A stretch of DNA of 41,303 nt from a virus. Shown in pieces: positions 7,241 through 36,662 of the stretch; the first letter of the stretch is position 1, and the number at the start of each line of letters is the position of its first letter. The notes beneath the pieces were generated by a model, which worked only from the letters and a program-made list of their open reading frames with translations, was not told the DNA's origin and did not search any database. Location: positions 1 to 41,303 of the IMG/VR virus record IMGVR_UViG_3300009169_000006; one strand, given 5' to 3'. A program made the position numbers and the translations under genes.

Positions 7241-7307
7241 GAAGATCGTGAGATCTTCCTAGTGATTTATCCCAAGGCTCGTTTCCTTTTGGCTATGAGC
7301 CTTGGGG
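7241..7307 (+). other. Two strong hairpins between structural genes
   Basis: GAAGATC-gtga-GATCTTC (7241-7258) is a 7-bp stem with a GNRA loop, followed by CCCAAGGCTC (7271-7280) / GAGCCTTGGG (7297-7306), a 10-bp stem with a 16-nt loop. Neither is followed by a T-run. This placement downstream of coat and the following structural gene would suit partial termination or mRNA 3'-end protection; both hairpins would also be RNase III substrates. Confidence 0.45.
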
Positions 7308-7341
7308 TCTGTGAAAATTCCTATAGCCACAAGGGGAAAAA

Positions 7342-7731
7342 ATGGTTACAGAAGTGAAAAAAGACAAAAAACAAGTAAATATCCAGTACATGAGAGATAA
7401 AGATGCCCAAAAAGTTAAAGGTATCTTTAGATTCCATGAACGTAAGGGCGGCACCCTAGATTTCTCGTATAAATTCTATAAGGGTGATCCAATTGAAGAT
7501 TATCACCTTACAGATGATCAGATATACGATATACCACTGGGTGTTGCTAAACATCTTAATAGAAGTGGTCGATATGCAATCCATGAATTTACCACTGATA
7601 AGAATGGTGTACCTTCATCGAACATTGGTAAACGTGTAGCTCGATACTCATTTGAATCATTAGAGTTCATGGATGTGAACGATATGAAAGATACGAGTGA
7701 TATGATACCCGAAGTAACATCAGCAGGTTAA
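7342..7731 (+). CDS. Conserved-type phage head protein (129 aa), unknown function
   Basis: It starts MVTEVKKDKKQVNIQYMRDKD and contains KVKGIFRFHERKGGTLDFSYKFYKGDP, DIPLGVAKHLNRSG and a PRY/ARYSF-type end (RVARYSFESLEF). This block pattern is familiar from podovirus genomes immediately downstream of coat genes, where it is left as hypothetical. It probably belongs to the virion or its assembly. The ATG follows AAGGGG. Confidence 0.6.
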   Translation: MVTEVKKDKKQVNIQYMRDKDAQKVKGIFRFHERKGGTLDFSYKFYKGDPIEDYHLTDDQIYDIPLGVAKHLNRSGRYAIHEFTTDKNGVPSSNIGKRVARYSFESLEFMDVNDMKDTSDMIPEVTSAG

Positions 7732-8094: not shown

Positions 8095-9123
8095 ATGCCA
8101 ACACTATTAGATATACAGACTCTTGTTAGAAACCTTACGAGGGCACCATCACCAGCACAGTTATCAGATGCTGCGATCAATGAGGCTGTTAATACCTTTC
8201 TACTATATGACTTCTCATATCGTATAAGACCACTAGATTTAAGGCGTACGCTAACATTCTATACCTCGCCTTATGTTGATACCTATTCTACAAATACCGT
8301 TGATCCTACAAGTCCTTTGTACGATTTTAAGAATAAGTATGTTAATGTCATGAATCCTTTCTATGTTGCTGGCTTTCCTGCTGTACTAGCACAAGATAGA
8401 GAATCATTCTGGGCTATGTATCCACAACAGCAATATGTTACGACATTGCCCCAACTGGGCGATGGCGTAAATAGCCACTTCACAGGTAGATTAGCCTATG
8501 TTCCAGCTATATACCAAAATACAGTGACCTTTACATCACAGACACTAATTGGTGCTGATATAGCAGCTAATACTATCAAAGATGTACCTAATTATTTACC
8601 TAATGGAATAATGGCTACTACAGGACAGTTTGTTGTTCCTGATCAGTTAGCACCATTCTGGGGTACGATTAATTATGTAACAGGTGACTATGATATTACA
8701 TTCCCGTTACCTCCAATGGCTCAAAAACCTATAACAGTAGAGTACTTATCTTATGTTCCAGGTAGACCTTATAATATATTGTTTTATAATGACACTTTTT
8801 ATCTCCGCCCTTCTCCTGATAGAGCTTACCCTGTTACTATGGATGTAACAGTTAGACCTGTAGAATTAATCAATACTGGGCAGATAGTCGAGATAGCTCA
8901 ATGGTGGCAATATATTGCTTATGGAGCATCTATCAAGATACTACAAAGGCGATTAGACCAGGATACTGTTGCACTTATTACGCCTGAATTCCTTGAACAG
9001 GAAGCACTTTGCATGCGCAAAACGCTTGTACAAAACACAAGTAAACGAACAGTAACTATCTATAATCAGCCAAGTAACTTTAGATATGGATATGGTTGGC
9101 CAACAGACTGGAATTTCTTTTAA
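8095..9123 (+). CDS. Head-to-tail adaptor / tail tube protein (putative, 342 aa)
   Basis: The N-terminus LLDIQTLVRNLTRAPSPAQLSDAAINEAVNTFL is a helical pair typical of connector or adaptor proteins that bind the portal. The middle is beta-rich with many Tyr/Pro, and the C-terminus is again helical (WQYIAYGASIKILQRRLDQD). Size and place between head genes and the large nozzle gene fit the adaptor or tail-tube A protein of podoviruses. Ribosome-binding site AAGGAAGAG. Confidence 0.6.
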   Translation: MPTLLDIQTLVRNLTRAPSPAQLSDAAINEAVNTFLLYDFSYRIRPLDLRRTLTFYTSPYVDTYSTNTVDPTSPLYDFKNKYVNVMNPFYVAGFPAVLAQDRESFWAMYPQQQYVTTLPQLGDGVNSHFTGRLAYVPAIYQNTVTFTSQTLIGADIAANTIKDVPNYLPNGIMATTGQFVVPDQLAPFWGTINYVTGDYDITFPLPPMAQKPITVEYLSYVPGRPYNILFYNDTFYLRPSPDRAYPVTMDVTVRPVELINTGQIVEIAQWWQYIAYGASIKILQRRLDQDTVALITPEFLEQEALCMRKTLVQNTSKRTVTIYNQPSNFRYGYGWPTDWNFF

Positions 9124-22984: not shown

Positions 22985-23455
22985 ATGGCAACAAACAATG
23001 CGATTAACAACCCAAAGATCATGTTCTTTGCATATCTTAATGCATCGACTGGAGCGGTTACTGGTGACGCTACAGTATACTCAATAGCTTACGATCGAGT
23101 CTTATATGACTCAACTGCCAGCATGAACTTAGCTACTGGAGCATATCTGGTACCAAAAACAGGCAAATATTTTCTAACATTTACAACGCTTCTAGGTGGT
23201 CTAGCAGCTCATACATCAGCTAATTATTATATGTCAGTTGCTGGCGTTTTGGATTGGAATGGTGCCCTTATAAATCCAGGAGTTGTTGATCAAGCTGGTT
23301 TATTAAGTTTAACTGATGCGGCGATAGTTAATTTAACTGCTGGTCAATCCGTTATAGTGACAGGGAACGTAGCAGGCGGAGCTAAATCAGTTACCATACA
23401 ATCAGGCGGCGCAGCTAGTCCTCAATCATGGTTTTGCGGATTCTTAATTGATTAA
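22985..23455 (+). CDS. C1q-like small adhesin, paralogue 1 of 6 (156 aa)
   Basis: First of six tandem genes sharing the N-terminal octapeptide MATNNAIN and a C1q/TNF-like jelly-roll pattern: FFAYLNASTGAVTGD, an aromatic strand before TGKYFLTFTTLLGG, and a final AGGAKSVTIQSGG...WFCGFLI. The conserved tag is probably a docking peptide for the virion, while the body varies. Expected to be a trimeric surface adhesin; enzymatic motifs are absent. Ribosome-binding site AAAGGTG. Confidence 0.6.
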   Translation: MATNNAINNPKIMFFAYLNASTGAVTGDATVYSIAYDRVLYDSTASMNLATGAYLVPKTGKYFLTFTTLLGGLAAHTSANYYMSVAGVLDWNGALINPGVVDQAGLLSLTDAAIVNLTAGQSVIVTGNVAGGAKSVTIQSGGAASPQSWFCGFLID

Positions 23456-23464
23456 GGAGATATT

Positions 23465-23932
23465 ATGGCAACAAATAACGCAGTTAATTTTAAAAAACCA
23501 TTTCCATCGTTTTACGCGTATGCAAGTGCTGATGTGGCAAATGTAACTGGTGATGGTACAGTTGTGACTCTTCCTCTGAATAGTACATTACATAATGTTA
23601 CAACATCCTATAGCACGGCTACGTACACATTCACTGCCGATAGAACAGGCAAATTTTTAGTAGCATCGCAGCTATTTCTAGGTGAGCTTGTGGGTCATTC
23701 TTCTGTGGATTTCACTATAGTTACAACAGCTAGAAACTATGCTGTTACTGCAAATTTGACACCTATGGCAAGTGGCGCAACAACAGTATGCGGATTCCAA
23801 AACATAGCTCTGGTAGATATGACAGCAGGAGACACTTTGTATTTGACGGCTGCATGCGGTGGAGGTGGAAAAACGGTAGATCTTATAGGTCTAAAATATT
23901 ACTCATATTTATCATGTAGCTATATAGGTTAA
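23465..23932 (+). CDS. C1q-like small adhesin, paralogue 2 of 6 (155 aa)
   Basis: Starts MATNNAVNFKK, has FYAYASADVANVTGDGTV, DRTGKFLVASQLFLGEL and a C-terminal CGGGGKTVDLIGL. Same layout as the flanking paralogues, with AV in place of AI in the tag. It is separated from its neighbours by only 9 nt on each side, each gap carrying AAGGAG. Confidence 0.6.
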   Translation: MATNNAVNFKKPFPSFYAYASADVANVTGDGTVVTLPLNSTLHNVTTSYSTATYTFTADRTGKFLVASQLFLGELVGHSSVDFTIVTTARNYAVTANLTPMASGATTVCGFQNIALVDMTAGDTLYLTAACGGGGKTVDLIGLKYYSYLSCSYIG

Positions 23933-23941
23933 GGAGAAACC

Positions 23942-24412
23942 ATGGCAACAAACAATGCAATAAATCAGCATAAACCTATCCCTTTATTTTTTGCATATAT
24001 GGCTGCATCAACAGGAGCAGTCACAGGTGATGGGACAACTGTTAAGGTACCATACGATTCAACATTATTTAATGATGGAAGTTTCAACACAGCGACCTAT
24101 GAATTCATAGCACCAAGTAACGGTATATATTTATTGAATACTGGAATTATTGCTGATAATGCTAACGGCAAAACGTCTGCAGGGATTCAGTTTTATATAA
24201 ATGGCGTCCTTTTCAACGCATATGGCTGTAACCCTAATTTAATAACAGTAGGCGGATCATATAGTAAGAACGTTAACTGTATTGTTGAAATGACTGCTGC
24301 ACAATCAGCATACCTTATTTTTTATGTAGCAGGTGGCGCTAAAAACTGTGCAATTATTAGTGCAGGCGCTGCTAACCCAAGAACGTGGTTCTCAGCAACT
24401 CTAATAGGATGA
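23942..24412 (+). CDS. C1q-like small adhesin, paralogue 3 of 6 (156 aa)
   Basis: Starts MATNNAINQHK, has FFAYMAASTGAVTGDGTTV, a PSNGIYLLNTGII strand pair and AGGAKNCAIISAG near the end. The segment MAASTGAVTGDGT is closest to paralogue 1. Its TGA stop is one of few TGA stops in the window. Confidence 0.6.
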   Translation: MATNNAINQHKPIPLFFAYMAASTGAVTGDGTTVKVPYDSTLFNDGSFNTATYEFIAPSNGIYLLNTGIIADNANGKTSAGIQFYINGVLFNAYGCNPNLITVGGSYSKNVNCIVEMTAAQSAYLIFYVAGGAKNCAIISAGAANPRTWFSATLIG

Positions 24413-24414
24413 CT

Positions 24415-24900
24415 ATGGCAACAAATAACGCAATAAACCAAATCGGCGTGCTGCCTTCATTTATGGCTGTTCAAAATGCCGACCAAGCAAGCGTGACTGG
24501 TGATGGGAGTGTTTACGTACCACAATTTACTAATGTTGTTTATAATGCAACAAGTTCATTTGATGGAACTTCTACTTTTACTGCACCACTAACAGGCAAA
24601 TATTGTTTCGGTGTCCATTTTCAATTTACAAATGTAGCAGCTGGTATGACTATTGGATATTGTCAGTTAATTACTACATTAGCTACATATAATTTATTTT
24701 TTTTAAACCCAGGAACTATGAGAGCCGCTAACAATATACTTACAATACAAAATTCTATTATAGTGCCTATGACTGCTACTAATACAGCATCATTAAATAT
24801 TGCCTTTTTGAATGGTGCAAAAGCAGTAACTATACAAGGAGCAACAGCAGCGGCATCAAGAACTCCATTCTTCAGCGGTTATATGATTTCAGGAATTTAA
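24415..24900 (+). CDS. C1q-like small adhesin, paralogue 4 of 6 (161 aa)
   Basis: The start is set at the conserved MATNNAIN (24415), two bases after the previous stop, instead of an in-frame codon at 24385 inside the previous gene. It has FMAVQNADQASVTGDGSVY, LTGKYCFGVHFQF and FLNGAKAVTIQGATAA. It is the only copy without a clear AAGGAG in front, the nearest being AGGATG in the previous coding sequence. Confidence 0.6.
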   Translation: MATNNAINQIGVLPSFMAVQNADQASVTGDGSVYVPQFTNVVYNATSSFDGTSTFTAPLTGKYCFGVHFQFTNVAAGMTIGYCQLITTLATYNLFFLNPGTMRAANNILTIQNSIIVPMTATNTASLNIAFLNGAKAVTIQGATAAASRTPFFSGYMISGI

Positions 24901-24910
24901 CGGAGAAACT

Positions 24911-25384
24911 ATGGCAACAAATAATGCAATAAATTATAGACCAATATCATGGTTCGTTTACCCAAGTATAGACACCGACGATCAAACTGGTGATGGCACT
25001 GGGATAAGTCCTTTTTTTGATACGACTAAGTTTTTAATTGGTGGAGCTACTTTTTTTGGTCATCAAATTGGTGCGCCTGTTGCTGGATATTACATGATTA
25101 ATGCACAAGTTACGTTTGGAAATGTCGCAGCTCATACAGCAGCGAGCATCAATATATTGAATACAACAACGGGAGAACAATCAACTCCATGCGAATGTAA
25201 TCCGTCTGTTTTGAAAGATTCAAGTGATAAGTTCATGTTAAGCACACAGGCTGTTTTTTATTTAAATGTAGGTGATTTTATAGGTGTTACATGCGTTGTT
25301 AGTGGTGGAGCTAAAACGGTTGATTTATTGAGTGGTATCGCTAGTGAACCATTAACATGGTTTTCAGGGGCAATTTTAATATAA
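24911..25384 (+). CDS. C1q-like small adhesin, paralogue 5 of 6 (157 aa)
   Basis: Starts MATNNAINYRPI, has FVYPSIDTDDQTGDGTG, APVAGYYMINAQVTFGN and SGGAKTVDLLSGI before WFSGAILI. It fits the C1q-like strand order of the others but has diverged in the first strand. Ribosome-binding site CGGAGA. Confidence 0.6.
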   Translation: MATNNAINYRPISWFVYPSIDTDDQTGDGTGISPFFDTTKFLIGGATFFGHQIGAPVAGYYMINAQVTFGNVAAHTAASINILNTTTGEQSTPCECNPSVLKDSSDKFMLSTQAVFYLNVGDFIGVTCVVSGGAKTVDLLSGIASEPLTWFSGAILI

Positions 25385-25392
25385 GGGAAAAC

Positions 25393-25863
25393 ATGGCAAC
25401 AAATAATGCAATTAATTTAGCAAAGCCTTATCCATTATTTTTTGGATATTACAGTGCAACAACAGCAGCGATTACTGGTGATGGTACGCTGTTTCCGCTT
25501 GCTTTTGATACAGACAAATTCGATCTTGGCGGCAATCTTCTTAACGGAGTCGTGACGATACCTACGACTGGCAAATACTATATATATGTAACTACTCAAT
25601 TAGGCTCTTTGGCTGTTGGGCATACATCATGCTTGCTGCAAGTAGGTTTAGCAGGTAACTATTTGGATGGTGGTTATGTCAACATAGGAGCAATACGTGA
25701 TTCAGCTGATACAGCATCAGTTTCAGTATGTGGTCTTATGGATTTTACAGCAGCAGATATCGTGCAAGCATCAATAACGGTGACAGGAGCTGCTAAGGCA
25801 GTAACAGTTATCGGCGCAGCTACATATAGCTCGTACATATGCGGTTATTTGATTAATAGTTAA
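25393..25863 (+). CDS. C1q-like small adhesin, paralogue 6 of 6 (156 aa)
   Basis: Start set at the MATNNAIN codon at 25393 after AAGGGAAA; a longer in-frame start at 25357 lies inside the previous gene. It has FFGYYSATTAAITGDGTLF, TTGKYYIYVTTQLGSL and TGAAKAVTVIGAAT, and ends YICGYLINS. It is the last gene of the rightward late block and is followed by a hairpin terminator facing the other way. Confidence 0.6.
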   Translation: MATNNAINLAKPYPLFFGYYSATTAAITGDGTLFPLAFDTDKFDLGGNLLNGVVTIPTTGKYYIYVTTQLGSLAVGHTSCLLQVGLAGNYLDGGYVNIGAIRDSADTASVSVCGLMDFTAADIVQASITVTGAAKAVTVIGAATYSSYICGYLINS

Positions 25864-25924: not shown

Positions 25925-26194
25925 TCAAAGCTTATATTGGATCAACTTAGCCAATCCAATAATAGAGCGTTCACAATCTTGGAACTGAGCCAAGAGTTCT
26001 TTCATAAATTCTTCATCTTCATAGAGACTTTTGAATATTCTATCGAATAGGTAACTTATAGGTTGCCAATCGATAACATCTTCTTCACCTAATTGAATGT
26101 AATATTCTATAGCTCCACTGTCACAATAAACCTTCAAGATAGTAGCATAGGGCTTTATATCGAATTTGGTTGGTGGACAATGGCGCTCAATCAT
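25925..26194 (-). CDS. Hypothetical protein (89 aa), end of the ERF operon
   Basis: MIERHCPPTKFDIKPYATIL, then YYIQLGEEDVIDWQPISYLF and a helical C-terminus with FMKELLAQFQDCERSI. The start overlaps the stop of the upstream ERF-like gene (ATGA). No family is recognised. Co-transcription with two annealing proteins suggests a recombination or replication accessory role, which is inference. Confidence 0.55.
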   Translation of the reverse strand: MIERHCPPTKFDIKPYATILKVYCDSGAIEYYIQLGEEDVIDWQPISYLFDRIFKSLYEDEEFMKELLAQFQDCERSIIGLAKLIQYKL

Positions 26195-26943
26195 TTCACA
26201 CTCTTTCGTGTTTCTCGAATGCGGTAAATCTCTCGCTTAACGGATTGATATTGATCTTGTGGGATCTCTGAAAGATAAGATACTCTCATGGATTTTAGGA
26301 TTGATTTGTAAACATCTTTCATATCTTCTCCCGATAACAAGTCATCGAGTTCGTCGAGCTGTGTTTTATTTATCCGCTTGTACTGGTCATCTGGTATATT
26401 ACCATAGTTATGACGGAGAGATACACCTTCAATTTGCTCATCTCTAGAAATCTTCGTTTCCTCTTCACAATCATCATCATCTCTGCAATTTCTTGGCGCA
26501 ATGCCAAGAATTGCTAGAAGAGCTTGTTTCTTAGTCTCATTTAACAATGAACAAAATACCTTCATTTCCCCTGATATTGCCGTAACCTTGCTGAGACATT
26601 CAAAGTACTGTCCTGAAGAATGCACAAGCTTAGTGTACAACGTAGTGCCATCGCTATCGGTAATAGGTAGTTGAGTAACAGCCAGTTGGTTAGCTTCAAG
26701 TGCTTTTCTCGTCGCTGTAAAGATTGCATCTATATCTACATACTCTGTTTGTGTTCTTGGATTCATCCTGTTAAAAAACAGTGGCAAATATGACCCCTGA
26801 GCCAAGCTAAGGGCAGAAGCCAATAGATTAGTCTCAGGGGATTGAAAGGTGCGCCTAGGGTAATTTTTAAGCTTTTCTTGATAACCAGCTTCCAATAGCT
26901 CAGTCATAGCCTTATATAGATGAATAAGTTCGTTTGTTTCCAT
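26191..26943 (-). CDS. ERF-family ssDNA annealing protein, diverged copy (250 aa)
   Basis: ERF pattern: NLLASALSLAQG near residue 40, MNPRTQTEYVDIDAIFTATRKALEAN, LAVTQLPITD, TTLYTKLVHSSGQYF. The usual Q-x-x-G-S-x-x-T-Y-x-x-R-Y-x-L-x-x-x-L-G-I block is only partly kept (MKVFCSLLNETKKQALLAILGI). An acidic DDDDCEEE linker leads to a C-terminal module (DELDDLLSGED ... VSYLSEIPQDQYQSVKREI) that is also found in the upstream ERF gene. ERF proteins anneal single strands in recombination-dependent replication. It is translationally joined to its neighbours. Confidence 0.7.
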   Translation of the reverse strand: METNELIHLYKAMTELLEAGYQEKLKNYPRRTFQSPETNLLASALSLAQGSYLPLFFNRMNPRTQTEYVDIDAIFTATRKALEANQLAVTQLPITDSDGTTLYTKLVHSSGQYFECLSKVTAISGEMKVFCSLLNETKKQALLAILGIAPRNCRDDDDCEEETKISRDEQIEGVSLRHNYGNIPDDQYKRINKTQLDELDDLLSGEDMKDVYKSILKSMRVSYLSEIPQDQYQSVKREIYRIRETRKSVK

Positions 26944-27554
26944 TATGTACCCTTCAAAGCAGTCTTAATTTTAACGATTGTATCTTTAACTGTCTCGAAA
27001 GAATCGTATGGAATTTCTTCAAACTTAGAAACCTTTATAAGTTTAAACAATGACGTAGACACTTTTTCATCACTGTCGATAAGTTTTTTAAGTTCTGCGA
27101 CATCAGTGTCAGTTATAAATGCTGGTTTAGTTTGCGCTACGAACTCTTCTAATCCATCATCAAAGTCCTGGTCGCCTGTCATGATACCGAACATCGCTCT
27201 AAGATCTTGACGGCATCTATATGTCATTATCTTGCCAAGATCTTGCTGGTTCATGGTTGTAGCTGATTCTTTAGTCCATAAGAAAGACAGTGATGAACGC
27301 CATTCGCCACTTACATGCGTAACTAATGTTTCAAGCATAACGTCGTCATTGTTGTATCTTGGCTCTTGAGCAATGTGAACATCATGCTTATTAGCTATAG
27401 GTAATAATATGAACAACATGTGTTCAAGCCTAACAACCTTGAAACTACGTTGACCACTTACTTGTACGCCAGTCTTATACATTGGTGGTAACTGCTTTTG
27501 TATTGCTATCATCGCCTTTGTAAGCTCAATTATGGAGTCACTTCTATATTGCAT
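26943..27554 (-). CDS. erf: ERF-family ssDNA annealing protein (203 aa)
   Basis: ERF core: SIIELTKAMIAIQKQLPPMYKTG, VVRLEHMLFILLPIANKHDVHIAQE, MLETLVTHVSGEWRSS, then MNQQDLGKIMTYRCRQDLRAMFGI, which keeps the Q-x-x-G-x-x-x-T-Y-x-x-R-x-x-L pattern. The C-terminal module (DVAELKKLIDSDE ... FEEIPYDSFETVKDTI) is shared with the downstream copy. It promotes annealing of complementary single strands, probably for genome circularisation or concatemer formation together with the RusA-like resolvase. Confidence 0.75.
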   Translation of the reverse strand: MQYRSDSIIELTKAMIAIQKQLPPMYKTGVQVSGQRSFKVVRLEHMLFILLPIANKHDVHIAQEPRYNNDDVMLETLVTHVSGEWRSSLSFLWTKESATTMNQQDLGKIMTYRCRQDLRAMFGIMTGDQDFDDGLEEFVAQTKPAFITDTDVAELKKLIDSDEKVSTSLFKLIKVSKFEEIPYDSFETVKDTIVKIKTALKGT

Positions 27555-33370: not shown

Positions 33371-35734
33371 ATGAATAATATACCACAACAAGCTAGAAAA
33401 AGCACTATAGATGTGATTTCTGAATGCCATAATCAAATGGCTAATAACAGCCTACCTTTTCCTTCTGGTGAGAATCTTATTCTTGATAATAACATGCATA
33501 GATATTCTGCGGATAATAAACCAGAAAAAGATGAATGGTATTGGGGTATATCAGATGAAGACGGAACAATTGTTGTTTATGGTTCATGGAGCACGGGTGA
33601 TAAATTTACATTCAACAGTTGGTCATCAGAAGATACCGAAGATTCTGATATTAGACTTAGAAGAGAGTACAAGATAAAAGAGTTAAAACAAAAAGCAGAT
33701 AAAGAACGCGATGAGAAACAGTATCAAGCCTCGCTCAAAGCACTTGAATGTTTTGAGAATCATGTAAAGCCTACAGAAACGCACCTAGGATATCCAAACT
33801 ACAAAGGAATTAAGCCTTTAGGCGTACGCTTCATGCCTTCAAGGGCTAATGCATTCATGGTACCATTGCGTGATACACAGGGCAAATTATGGAGTATTCA
33901 ATTTATTATATTCTTTGCTAATACCATGGAAAATGATAAGAAGTTTTTCCCTGACTCAAGAACTGGTAGTGTATTCCATGTAATCAATGATGAAAAGCTT
34001 TGCAATGATATAACAATATATGTTTGCGAAGGCTGGGCTACAGGTGTATCCATATATGAAGTGGTTAAGGCTCCAAATGTTCGTGTAGTTGCTGCTATGA
34101 GTATGCTTAATATTAGTAAGACTATAGATGTTATAAGAAAGTCTTTCAATTGCACGTTTATTATCTGTTCTGATGGTTCGCCTAGAGAAAAAGAAGCAGC
34201 CAATGAGGCTGCTACTAGATTCGGGTGTAAAGTAACATATCCTTATTGTCCTGAAGGTAACGACTTTAATGATGTGCATAAAACACTTGGTATTGAAGCT
34301 CTTAAAGAACAATTAAGCAAAACTGTAGAATTTGAAAGCAATATTGAAGCTGCAAAAAGACTTGCTGGGAAACTTCTAAAAAAAGAAGACCCTTGCGCAG
34401 GATTTAATCTTAAGAATATGCCACCAATTATAAGAGATCACGTTTTAGAGGTGTGTTGTTCGAATTCTGCTAGTCAATTAATAGTATTAACCGCTATCCT
34501 AGCAAGCTGCTCTTCTGCTATAGGTAAACGCTTTATTATGGAAGAAAGTAGAACTCGCGGGGAAGGTTATTTTAATCGTCTATATTGTAATCTATGGATG
34601 TTGTCAATAGCTCCTAGCGGATGGTTCAAAAGTACTGCAATAGGTTGCGGTTCTAGATATGTTAAAGAACACAGAAAGATTGTACGAGAAAAAGTTGAGT
34701 ATCTCAAAGGACAAATTAGAGTTTCAAATAATAAAGATGAGCAGTTAGCATTTTGGGAAATGATTCGCAAAACAGAATTGAAGAGTATTATGCTGCCTGA
34801 CAGAATAACACCAGAAGCACTACTTCAGATGTTAGGACAAGGTAGAGGCGGGGGCATCTTCAATAGTGAATTCGATAGTTTTCTTAAGAGCTTAACAAAA
34901 CCTGGCAATACTGAACTTATGTCTTTGTTTACAAAGTTTTATGACTGTGAAGAAGGAGCTTCAGAGAACAACACAAAGACTCAAGGTTCTGATTATGTTG
35001 ATAGACCATATATAACTATATGTGGTGTAACAACACCTGTCTGGATGTCTTCTGGTTTTAATGATAACGATATAAGAGGAGGCTTCGGAGCTAGATTTCT
35101 TATATTTATATTACCAGGTAATAATAAAAGACCGCCTTCTTTACCTAATGGTGATGATACTGCGCCAATAAACACCTATGCTGCATTTAAAGAGCGTCTT
35201 AATGAGTTACCTACTTTTAGACGATACAAGTTTAGTGAAGATGCATTGCCTTACTATGATGTTATTTACAATCAGATATATGACTTGAAGGACTCATTTG
35301 GCGAAGAAAGCGAAGAGATTTTAACGCCATTTACTCGCAGATGGTGTCCATATATCATCAAGGTAGCTATGATAATGCAGTACTTCTTTGATAAAAATAC
35401 TGACCTCATAAGTATTCAAGCAATAAATGCAGCGTTCGATTTTGTTTTACCCGCTATAAAATCAACAATCTATTTCTTTAAAGAAGAACTTGGCGAATCT
35501 AAGTTTGAACGTGAACAGAAAGCAGTCTTTAAATGGATATGCACACGTACAGAATCACAAGGCTTTGCTCGTCATGATGCATTCGTATCTTCACGCATAG
35601 GCGTAAGCCTTGGGAAGCAGGGCAGACTTGAAGCCATAACCACATTGAAAGAAAGCGGTAAAATCGAAATCATACCTGGTAAGACTATGGAAATGAACGT
35701 TTACAAGATTCTTAATAAAGTACCCATAGATTAA
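33371..35734 (+). CDS. Primase-helicase: TOPRIM domain plus DUF3987 (787 aa)
   Basis: Residues about 200-310 are a TOPRIM primase module: YVCEGWATG (acid Glu220), then CSDGSPREKEAANEAA (Asp268) and PEGNDFNDVHK (296-303). The usual D-x-D is D-G-S here. Residues about 340-780 are a DUF3987 ATPase of the primase-helicase type, with Walker A-like APSGWFKST (414-422) and GGIFNSEFDSF as a likely Walker B region. The N-terminal 100 residues contain a small domain with WYWGISDEDGTI. It should unwind and prime phage DNA. No phage DNA polymerase is visible, so the host enzyme must be used. The putative origin follows directly. Confidence 0.8.
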   Translation: MNNIPQQARKSTIDVISECHNQMANNSLPFPSGENLILDNNMHRYSADNKPEKDEWYWGISDEDGTIVVYGSWSTGDKFTFNSWSSEDTEDSDIRLRREYKIKELKQKADKERDEKQYQASLKALECFENHVKPTETHLGYPNYKGIKPLGVRFMPSRANAFMVPLRDTQGKLWSIQFIIFFANTMENDKKFFPDSRTGSVFHVINDEKLCNDITIYVCEGWATGVSIYEVVKAPNVRVVAAMSMLNISKTIDVIRKSFNCTFIICSDGSPREKEAANEAATRFGCKVTYPYCPEGNDFNDVHKTLGIEALKEQLSKTVEFESNIEAAKRLAGKLLKKEDPCAGFNLKNMPPIIRDHVLEVCCSNSASQLIVLTAILASCSSAIGKRFIMEESRTRGEGYFNRLYCNLWMLSIAPSGWFKSTAIGCGSRYVKEHRKIVREKVEYLKGQIRVSNNKDEQLAFWEMIRKTELKSIMLPDRITPEALLQMLGQGRGGGIFNSEFDSFLKSLTKPGNTELMSLFTKFYDCEEGASENNTKTQGSDYVDRPYITICGVTTPVWMSSGFNDNDIRGGFGARFLIFILPGNNKRPPSLPNGDDTAPINTYAAFKERLNELPTFRRYKFSEDALPYYDVIYNQIYDLKDSFGEESEEILTPFTRRWCPYIIKVAMIMQYFFDKNTDLISIQAINAAFDFVLPAIKSTIYFFKEELGESKFEREQKAVFKWICTRTESQGFARHDAFVSSRIGVSLGKQGRLEAITTLKESGKIEIIPGKTMEMNVYKILNKVPID

Positions 35735-35749
35735 TTGATTTAAAGAGAG

Positions 35750-36071
35750 CCTGACATAGCCTGACGCAGCCTGACAATGAGATGTCAGGTTCTTCTTTTT
35801 GTTTAAAAAGCCTTTATCTTAAGTATTATTATAATATATATATATATATATTACATAGATATAAGATAACCTGACATACCTGACATACTAGCTCGATCAA
35901 ATTATGGTTATTACAAATTGAAAAATTAAACTTACTTTTGAGAAAAAAGACACAAAAAATGTCAGGCTTGTCAGGTTTGTAAAATAGCCTTCGAAAAGAC
36001 TGATCTGATCAACGTATTGAAGCCTGACAATCGCATGTCAGGCAATGTCAGGGCTGTCAGGCAATGTCAGG
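35750..36071. repeat. CCTGACA iteron-like repeats (13 copies, both orientations)
   Basis: Forward copies start at 35750, 35760 (ends in G), 35770, 35870, 35879 and 36023. Reverse copies (TGTCAGG) start at 35783, 35960, 35969, 36036, 36046, 36055 and 36065. Spacing within groups is 9-10 bp. Pairs 35770/35783 and 36023/36036 form hairpins with 6-nt loops. I saw no other cluster of this heptamer in the window. Confidence 0.85.
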
Positions 36072-36106
36072 GAAGGTGTTTTTAGGCTAAAGTTTATACA
36101 TGGTTA

Positions 36107-36134
36107 TTGCTTAATTTATGGATTATGCTACAAT
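36107..36134 (+). promoter_or_regulatory. Sigma70-like promoter for the 36171 gene
   Basis: TTGCTT (36107-36112), a 16-base spacer, TACAAT (36129-36134). It begins 36 bp after the last heptamer repeat, so proteins bound to the repeats could control it. Confidence 0.55.
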
Positions 36135-36170
36135 ATGTTCAGCTACCAAAAGTATTCAAAAAGGAATAAG

Positions 36171-36662
36171 ATGAACGATAATTTAAAGATCAAAATTGAT
36201 GATCGATACATAGAAGTAAAGACGGAGCTAGATTCAGATACTAAACCAAATCTAATAATTATAAGAGATTTTATTGGATTAGGGTGTAGCATCTATATTA
36301 AAACAAAATTAAAAAGCGATAATGTACGAATATTGAATCTTGCTGGATTCGAACGCTATTTTAAAACGCCAACAAGTGAAATGTATAAAGGTGGAATAGT
36401 AGACTTTTTACATGGAAACTGTTTTTATATTAGCCAAGAGACTTTTAAAGAATGTTTAAAAGAAAACCATGGATTGTATCAATTGATTTTGGACTCTATA
36501 GAAGAAAGATCTTTTAAACTTGCTAGATATCTTTGTAATTCAGAAAAAAATATAGAGAATTTACGATGTTTTATGAGTTCATTGGCGACACAAAGATATC
36601 CTGATGAATTTTATTGGGAAGATGAAGAAATACAAACTATCGCCGAAATCCATAAAATTTAA
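36171..36662 (+). CDS. Unknown protein (163 aa) adjoining the origin
   Basis: I choose the ATG at 36171 with AAAAAGGAATAAG in front; an in-frame GTC-region start at 36045 would lie within the repeat array. The product begins MNDNLKIKIDDRYIEVKTEL, has IIIRDFIGLGCSIYIKTKLK (beta) and a helical second half with CLKENHGLYQLILDSIEERS. No initiator or DNA-binding motif is recognisable. Its place beside the repeats makes it a candidate repeat-binding protein, but that is only positional. Confidence 0.55.
   Translation: MNDNLKIKIDDRYIEVKTELDSDTKPNLIIIRDFIGLGCSIYIKTKLKSDNVRILNLAGFERYFKTPTSEMYKGGIVDFLHGNCFYISQETFKECLKENHGLYQLILDSIEERSFKLARYLCNSEKNIENLRCFMSSLATQRYPDEFYWEDEEIQTIAEIHKI

Follow-up and report, generated by a model that had tools for sequence, protein, structure and literature searches.

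Which element starts replication in this viral genome, and which protein acts on it, is the question raised by a cluster of short repeats directly behind a primase-helicase gene. The whole stretch of DNA analysed here, called the window below, covers the 41,303 bases of the source record. The repeats are heptamers of the word CCTGACA, and the gene in front of them encodes a protein with a Toprim and a DUF3987 domain. The array is probably the replication origin used by this adjacent primase-helicase, which is predicted to bind it.

According to Pfam and PHROG matches, the gene content of the window includes a P22-like portal, thymidine kinase, RusA and terminase. Behind a tail-spike-like gene lies a tandem paralogue family of six adjacent ORFs (22985-25863; 155-171 aa). 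They share 27-44% identity with one another, all have MATNNA(I/V)N at their start or close to it, and a single weak match, to a PHROG of unknown function, was obtained. Two neighbouring genes on the minus strand (26191-27554) match Erf-like ssDNA annealing proteins, and represent a duplicated annealing protein.

CCTGACA was found 14 times on the two strands of the whole window, while the shuffled sequences gave a mean of 3.57 and a maximum of 10, and none reached 14. Twelve of these copies fall inside the array (Table 1), and CCTGACG at 35760, the sole one-mismatch site within 35700-36150, makes the thirteenth site. The best other 7-mer in the window, with overlapping words excluded, had 5 copies per 350 bp, and 5 was also the maximum in 40 whole-window shuffles. 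The heptamers are spaced by 9-10 bp within groups, by 13-14 bp across both inverted pairs and by 53-87 bp from group to group. The array begins 16 bp past the stop of the primase-helicase gene and precedes the ATG of the ORF at 36171. A preliminary description of this DNA had reported 13 heptamers in both orientations, in groups phased by 9-10 bp, with A/T-rich surroundings and downstream of the primase-helicase, and all of this was confirmed. It had also described the array as flanking an (AT)n tract. The stretches between the groups are indeed rich in A/T (87%, 77% and 66% A+T), but the pure (AT)n tract separates the first group from the second and does not occupy the array centre. The 60 bp of lowest GC within the array (12% GC) start at 35793, and the A/T tract listed in Table 1 is a possible melting site.

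Table 1. Coordinates of the array, its parts and the two neighbouring genes in the window
Feature	Position	Strand	Details
Toprim_3 + DUF3987 primase-helicase, 787 aa, proposed initiator	33371..35734	+	Pfam, PHROG DNA primase families
Iteron array	35750..36071	both	13 heptamers: 12 CCTGACA + 1 CCTGACG; order >>><>><<><<<<
Left outer group	35750..35789		35750+, 35760+ (CCTGACG), 35770+, 35783-
Inverted iteron pair doubling as terminator-like hairpin 3' of primase gene	35768..35791	+	RNA fold z -2.46 (35735-35810)
A/T tract with (AT)n	35795..35869		87% A+T
Inner direct pair	35870..35885	+	35870+, 35879+
Central spacer separating both inner pairs	35886..35959		77% A+T
Inner inverted pair	35960..35975	-	35960-, 35969-
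IHF-like sequence GATCAACGTATTG	36007..36019	+	differs from consensus at one end base
Right outer group	36023..36071		36023+, 36036-, 36046-, 36055-, 36065-
Orphan ORF, 163 aa, candidate initiator of the preliminary description	36171..36662	+	no relatives found

DnaA boxes follow the consensus TTWTNCACA. No match to it was present in the window array, the nearest one being at 34273, and a DnaA-driven origin was rejected because the array has no such box. The IHF-like sequence was judged against WATCAANNNNTTR, which we take to be the IHF consensus. Exact matches to this consensus occurred in 8 of 24 arrays against 0.65 expected, with six of the eight seemingly from one or two related contig groups, and assistance by IHF at the window array is possible. 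An Rfam search gave no match. The cumulative GC skew of the window, which had been suggested earlier as a check, took no distinct turn.

The heptamers could also be operators, through which the primase or another protein would control the promoter of the 36171 ORF and the end of primase transcription, with replication starting elsewhere. The array does lie between the 3' end of the primase gene and the downstream start, one of its inverted pairs is terminator-like, and some heptamers overlap -35-like hexamers. However, promoter-like sites numbered 20 against 20.1 in shuffled sequences, thus without excess, and among phages the gene downstream varies whereas array and primase are constant. A mirrored plan of 12-13 sites over 300 bp, which the window has in common with Bdellovibrio phage phi1422, far exceeds the needs of an operator. 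This explanation is considered quite unlikely.

For the protein acting on the array, two neighbours come into question. In the 787-aa protein encoded upstream, Pfam placed Toprim_3 at residues 216-307 and DUF3987 at 371-697, with no match to Pox_D5. The preliminary description had stated that no known initiator gene was visible, and by this it overlooked the adjacent primase-helicase; in the flanking genes that were scanned, Pfam and PHROG revealed no Rep-family initiator. It had instead taken the product of the 36171 ORF as candidate initiator. Relatives of this product were absent from viral contigs, annotated phages, Pfam, PHROGs and NCBIfam, and its best match among 27911 ORFs of the fetched loci had an E value of 0.34. 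In addition, no homologue was present in the viral contig L219, a syntenic relative which does carry an array. As an orphan missing from L219, the 36171 product is a poor initiator candidate and was rejected. The preliminary description thus spotted the right feature and assigned it the wrong gene: its origin is well supported by comparison, and its initiator is not.

A wider form of this idea is that the array is an origin bound by some other phage protein, either the 36171 product or that of a more distant gene, which then recruits the primase-helicase. The 36171 ORF adjoins the array and is unassigned. Two contigs with CCTGACA arrays (L012 and L017) carry a small gene, and the L012 copy matches a PHROG named 'replication initiation protein' (E 2e-4). 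Furthermore, similarity in the C-terminal part of the primases did not predict the array word in a rough comparison. Against this stand the orphan status of the 36171 product, its absence from L219, and the lack of any second gene family common to the array loci. A separate binder is regarded as unlikely.

If the primase-helicase is the binder, its C-terminal part would be the place to look for a DNA-binding domain. AlphaFold gave a poor model for residues 331-787 together with three relatives (mean pLDDT 42.9), and a pLDDT of 47.9 for the C-terminal 133 aa alone. In the 331-787 model, which is of low confidence, the C-terminus was built as helix, short strand, helix, helix, strand, strand, with pLDDT of about 46-70 in this block; as modelled, this order of elements is that of a winged helix. 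Foldseek listed small winged-helix domains among its matches, but no match of any kind fell below E 0.1 (best E 0.15), and a sequence search of the PDB returned nothing or a single chance match at E 0.97. A Mantel test of C-terminal against word similarity gave r 0.094 (84/500, not significant), and was not counted as support because its 7-mer registers were rough. The set for this test took in KA2-1, ECOO78 and Alexa, whose arrays do not directly follow the primase.

A direct search of viral contigs gave no relatives of the window primase; it was the N-terminal Toprim part of the protein that led to relatives among named phages. Twenty loci were fetched, chosen from 40 listed of 54 records, with RefSeq duplicates and close relatives of chosen phages excluded (FoX1, FoX2, M29, Alux-21, Bas97, PT1, ep3, Mcat1, Mcat2, Mcat4 and Mcat6). 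The helicase modules attached to the common Toprim part vary: DUF3987 in the window, AAA_25 in XX1924, CGphi29 and 1N2-2, DUF927 in phiAH14b, a VapE-like module in Alexa, KA2-1 and PS3, and DUF5906 in Mcat5 and P4. The densest 7-mer cluster of each locus was then scanned with no word supplied, and it was called an array when it lay beyond all 40 shuffles. Arrays were revealed in this way in 13 of the 20 loci, namely phi1422 (GGTAACA, 11 copies), XX1924 and PB15 (TGAACCA, 8), CGphi29 (GGGGACA, 5), phiAH14b (GGGGAAC, 10), Alexa (AGTGCAA, 6), KA2-1 (GTGACCA, 8), ECOO78 (GGGTGAC, 6), Mcat5 (CCTGCAC, 8), 1N2-2 (CGGTACA, 8), PS3 (GGGTGAC, 7), MW202478 (CCCGACA, 5) and MW202475 (TGTAACA, 5). Eight of them start 9-53 bp past the stop of the primase, or of the split primase/helicase. 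The Alexa array starts 280 bp behind the primase, those of KA2-1, ECOO78 and MW202475 are 2.3-3.0 kb behind it, and that of MW202478 is upstream of it. The clusters of Mano, FoX3, MW202473, MQ-4, fHe-Yen8-01, U10 and Arya did not exceed all shuffles. Under the identical scan phage P4 returned its annotated ori and crr repeats. The preliminary view that plasmids show such a layout more typically than small lytic podoviruses do is not supported, as arrays are common among phages with the same primase module, including vB_AbaP_Alexa.

The same was seen in viral contigs collected by a profile search, of which the best 80 of 351 relatives were used. Ten of them had no primase stop and four more had less than 300 bases behind it, leaving 66 loci. 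A cluster beyond 30 shuffles was present in 26 of these and in 40 it was not; the filter drops two-letter words, so it hides arrays of the L219 kind. Relative to the primase stop, 19 of the 26 arrays start between -100 and +60; by position 0.53 would be expected there, and 2.6 for a random gene. When the DUF3987 half alone was used to find relatives, none of the five obtained had an array. The primase was the sole gene family beside the arrays in more than four loci, being there in 10 of 13 (12 loci including the window, plus P4).

L219 was the sole full-length relative found among the best 80 of 351, with 31% identity over 764 aa and both Toprim and DUF3987, and L300 is a near-copy of it (98.9% identical). 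Its genes are ordered primase, array, RusA and terminase, as in the window. The L219 array consists of nine CCTCTCT on both strands (7303-7664), 14 bp past the primase stop, compared with a maximum of 5 in 40 shuffles; as part of the stretch is a simple GA repeat, this count is not as clean as those of the other arrays. Between L219 and L300, 60 of 60 bases in the CCTCTC sites were kept, against 315 of 342 outside them, and between XX1924 and PB15 the corresponding values were 46 of 60 and 66 of 131. By these comparisons the array words are kept while the spacers change.

The array of phi1422 has the order >>><>><<><<< with spacings of 9, 10, 14, 64, 8, 89, 8, 64, 14, 10 and 9 bp, and in the same comparison the window spacings were 10, 10, 14, 86, 9, 82, 9, 53, 14, 10, 9 and 10 bp. 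The phi1422 string was contained in 218 of 200000 orientation shuffles and the closeness of spacing was matched by 4 of 100000 permutations, both of which are post hoc values because the likeness was noticed before the test, once the spacings had been printed. The two arrays follow one layout plan with unrelated words. Mirror symmetry was scored with hand-defined sites for 28 loci in 30 rows, most of which were not significant, and only phi1422 (12 of 12 sites, 0/1000), PS3 (12 of 12 with the 5-base core TGACC, 1/1000; 29/1000 with GGTGAC) and ECOO78 (10 of 13, 1/1000) were at 1/1000 or below. The window scored 8 of 13 at a tolerance of 3 bp (127/1000), which is not significant because its inner pairs are centred at 35922.5 and its outer groups near 35906, 17 bp apart. 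The window array is mirrored in order and inexact in distance.

CCTGACA itself was also found elsewhere. A pattern of three copies matched 31 viral loci, against 7 for the reversed word as control. Two or more copies per strand were present in 10 of the 31 loci and in none of the 7 control loci. Arrays of this word lie beside other primases in L014 (primase with DUF3987), L016 and L031 (PriCT_2, D5_N, DUF5906), L036 (Prim-Pol, DUF5906) and L012 and L017, and others are close to terminases or consist of simple tandem repeats. In bacterial genomes at least 119 stretches had the triple, and 3 of 80 among the matches listed were two-sided. The inverted-array pattern matched no viral contig, and neither did its control. 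The occurrence of CCTGACA in other contigs is taken to mean that a similar word came into use more than once, and not as proof of one lineage. That the window array arose by chance or by functionless expansion of a tandem repeat is hardly conceivable. Simple heptamer tandem arrays do exist, as the 7 control loci indicate, yet all 7 are one-sided, and the spacers in the arrays vary between copies while the layout is conserved.

The array might otherwise be a packaging (pac/cos) or partition site. The window terminase is 3.1 kb downstream of it, and CCTGACA arrays of L007, L015, L020, L027, L018, L028 and L019 are near terminase genes. In the relatives, however, arrays track the primase and not the terminase, and the similar repeats of P4 are annotated as ori and crr, which makes such a site very improbable.

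Several of these contigs have features of their own. The small protein beside the arrays of L012 (1850-2248) and L017 (5681-6271) presumably resembles the C-terminal DNA-binding domain of DnaA, as judged by eye. L007, L015, L016, L020, L027 and L031 form one group with two-sided CCTGACA arrays that contain exact IHF-consensus sites, part of them close to terminase genes and part next to a primase; this group possibly has two arrays per genome, as P4 has ori and crr. Twenty one-sided copies of GCCTGACA at about 10-bp spacing were present in L018 (3333-3603) and L028 (5410-5680), near a GpA-type terminase gene. L030, which has an MCM helicase gene and apparently derives from an archaeal virus, contains three tandem TGTCAGG copies (8566-8590) that may be chance.

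With the array read as an origin, the Toprim-DUF3987 primase-helicase would be its own initiator, encoded just upstream of the site it uses. Weighing against this reading are the loci without an array, the arrays 2.3-3.0 kb away from the primase, the poor structure model with its lack of significant Foldseek matches, the mirror score of the window itself and the GC skew. Its winged-helix-like C-terminal domain would bind the CCTGACA heptamers, the A/T-rich DNA near them would melt, the helicase would be loaded there, and the Toprim domain would prime. The near-mirror array carries 4+2 sites in its left half and 2+5 in its right half. One hexamer could be seated on each half, so that two helicases would face opposite ways. 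We infer from the mirror layout, with six sites per half, that two hexamers and a bidirectional start would fit. More tentatively, phages with Toprim primase-helicases may possibly share one mirror-image origin design of about 12 sites, six per half, for two hexamers facing apart, whose word would be exchanged freely between lineages and helicase types (DUF3987, AAA_25, DUF927, VapE, D5) while place and layout are kept.

This reading would give a practical rule for the origins of uncultured phages, which is a both-strand array of a short word directly 3' of a Toprim primase-helicase gene. It would link DUF3987, an uncharacterised ATPase module, to origin-dependent initiation. Exchanged words in a kept layout would supply naturally matched proteins and DNA words with which to study how initiators read their sites, and with six sites per half, double-hexamer loading becomes open to direct test.

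In the open-licence literature, neither an array following a DUF3987 primase nor a mirrored twelve-site plan was found described. CCTGACA/TGTCAGG was not retained as a published origin word, since in the replication papers that contain it, it occurred only within laboratory oligonucleotides (PMC8718748, PMC12205980). With iteron plasmid origins the window shares repeats and A/T-rich DNA, but its sites are in both orientations and its array has no DnaA-box match. Phage phi1422 (JQ177062, L044) has a Toprim primase similar over aa 34-315 (E 9e-27) and an array 10 bp past the primase stop with the identical 12-site layout, while its word is TGTTACC, its primase has no DUF3987 match and the array is unannotated in its record.

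Closest among known systems are satellite phage P4 and SaPI Rep/SCCmec Cch2. The alpha protein of P4 also has Toprim_3 (blastp E 1e-7 over window aa 158-315) and joins primase, ATPase and C-terminal part in a single polypeptide, and P4 has short iterons in both orientations, with crr directly behind the alpha gene. According to PMC4234260, P4 alpha uses a winged-helix domain to bind the origin repeats, after which it unwinds and primes. The helicase part of P4 alpha is D5_N/DUF5906/Pox_D5 instead of DUF3987, its repeat word is GGTGAACA instead of CCTGACA, and its repeats form two separate clusters (ori and crr) instead of one. Because of its different helicase module and the lack of a second repeat cluster, the window was not classed as a P4 replicon.

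In the origins of SaPI Rep, according to PMC7581432, iterons lie directly 3' of the helicase gene and are bound by the C-terminal domain of the helicase, with Rep apparently binding as two hexamers; the C-terminal domain of Cch2 was shown there to bind its own repeats. SaPI Rep and SCCmec Cch2 share with the window the short repeats directly behind the helicase gene, with a gap of 16 bp in the window; they differ by a separate primase, another type of helicase and, in Cch2, the iteron AAGTG. In its anatomy the window thus appears to resemble both P4 and the SaPI Rep/Cch2 systems.
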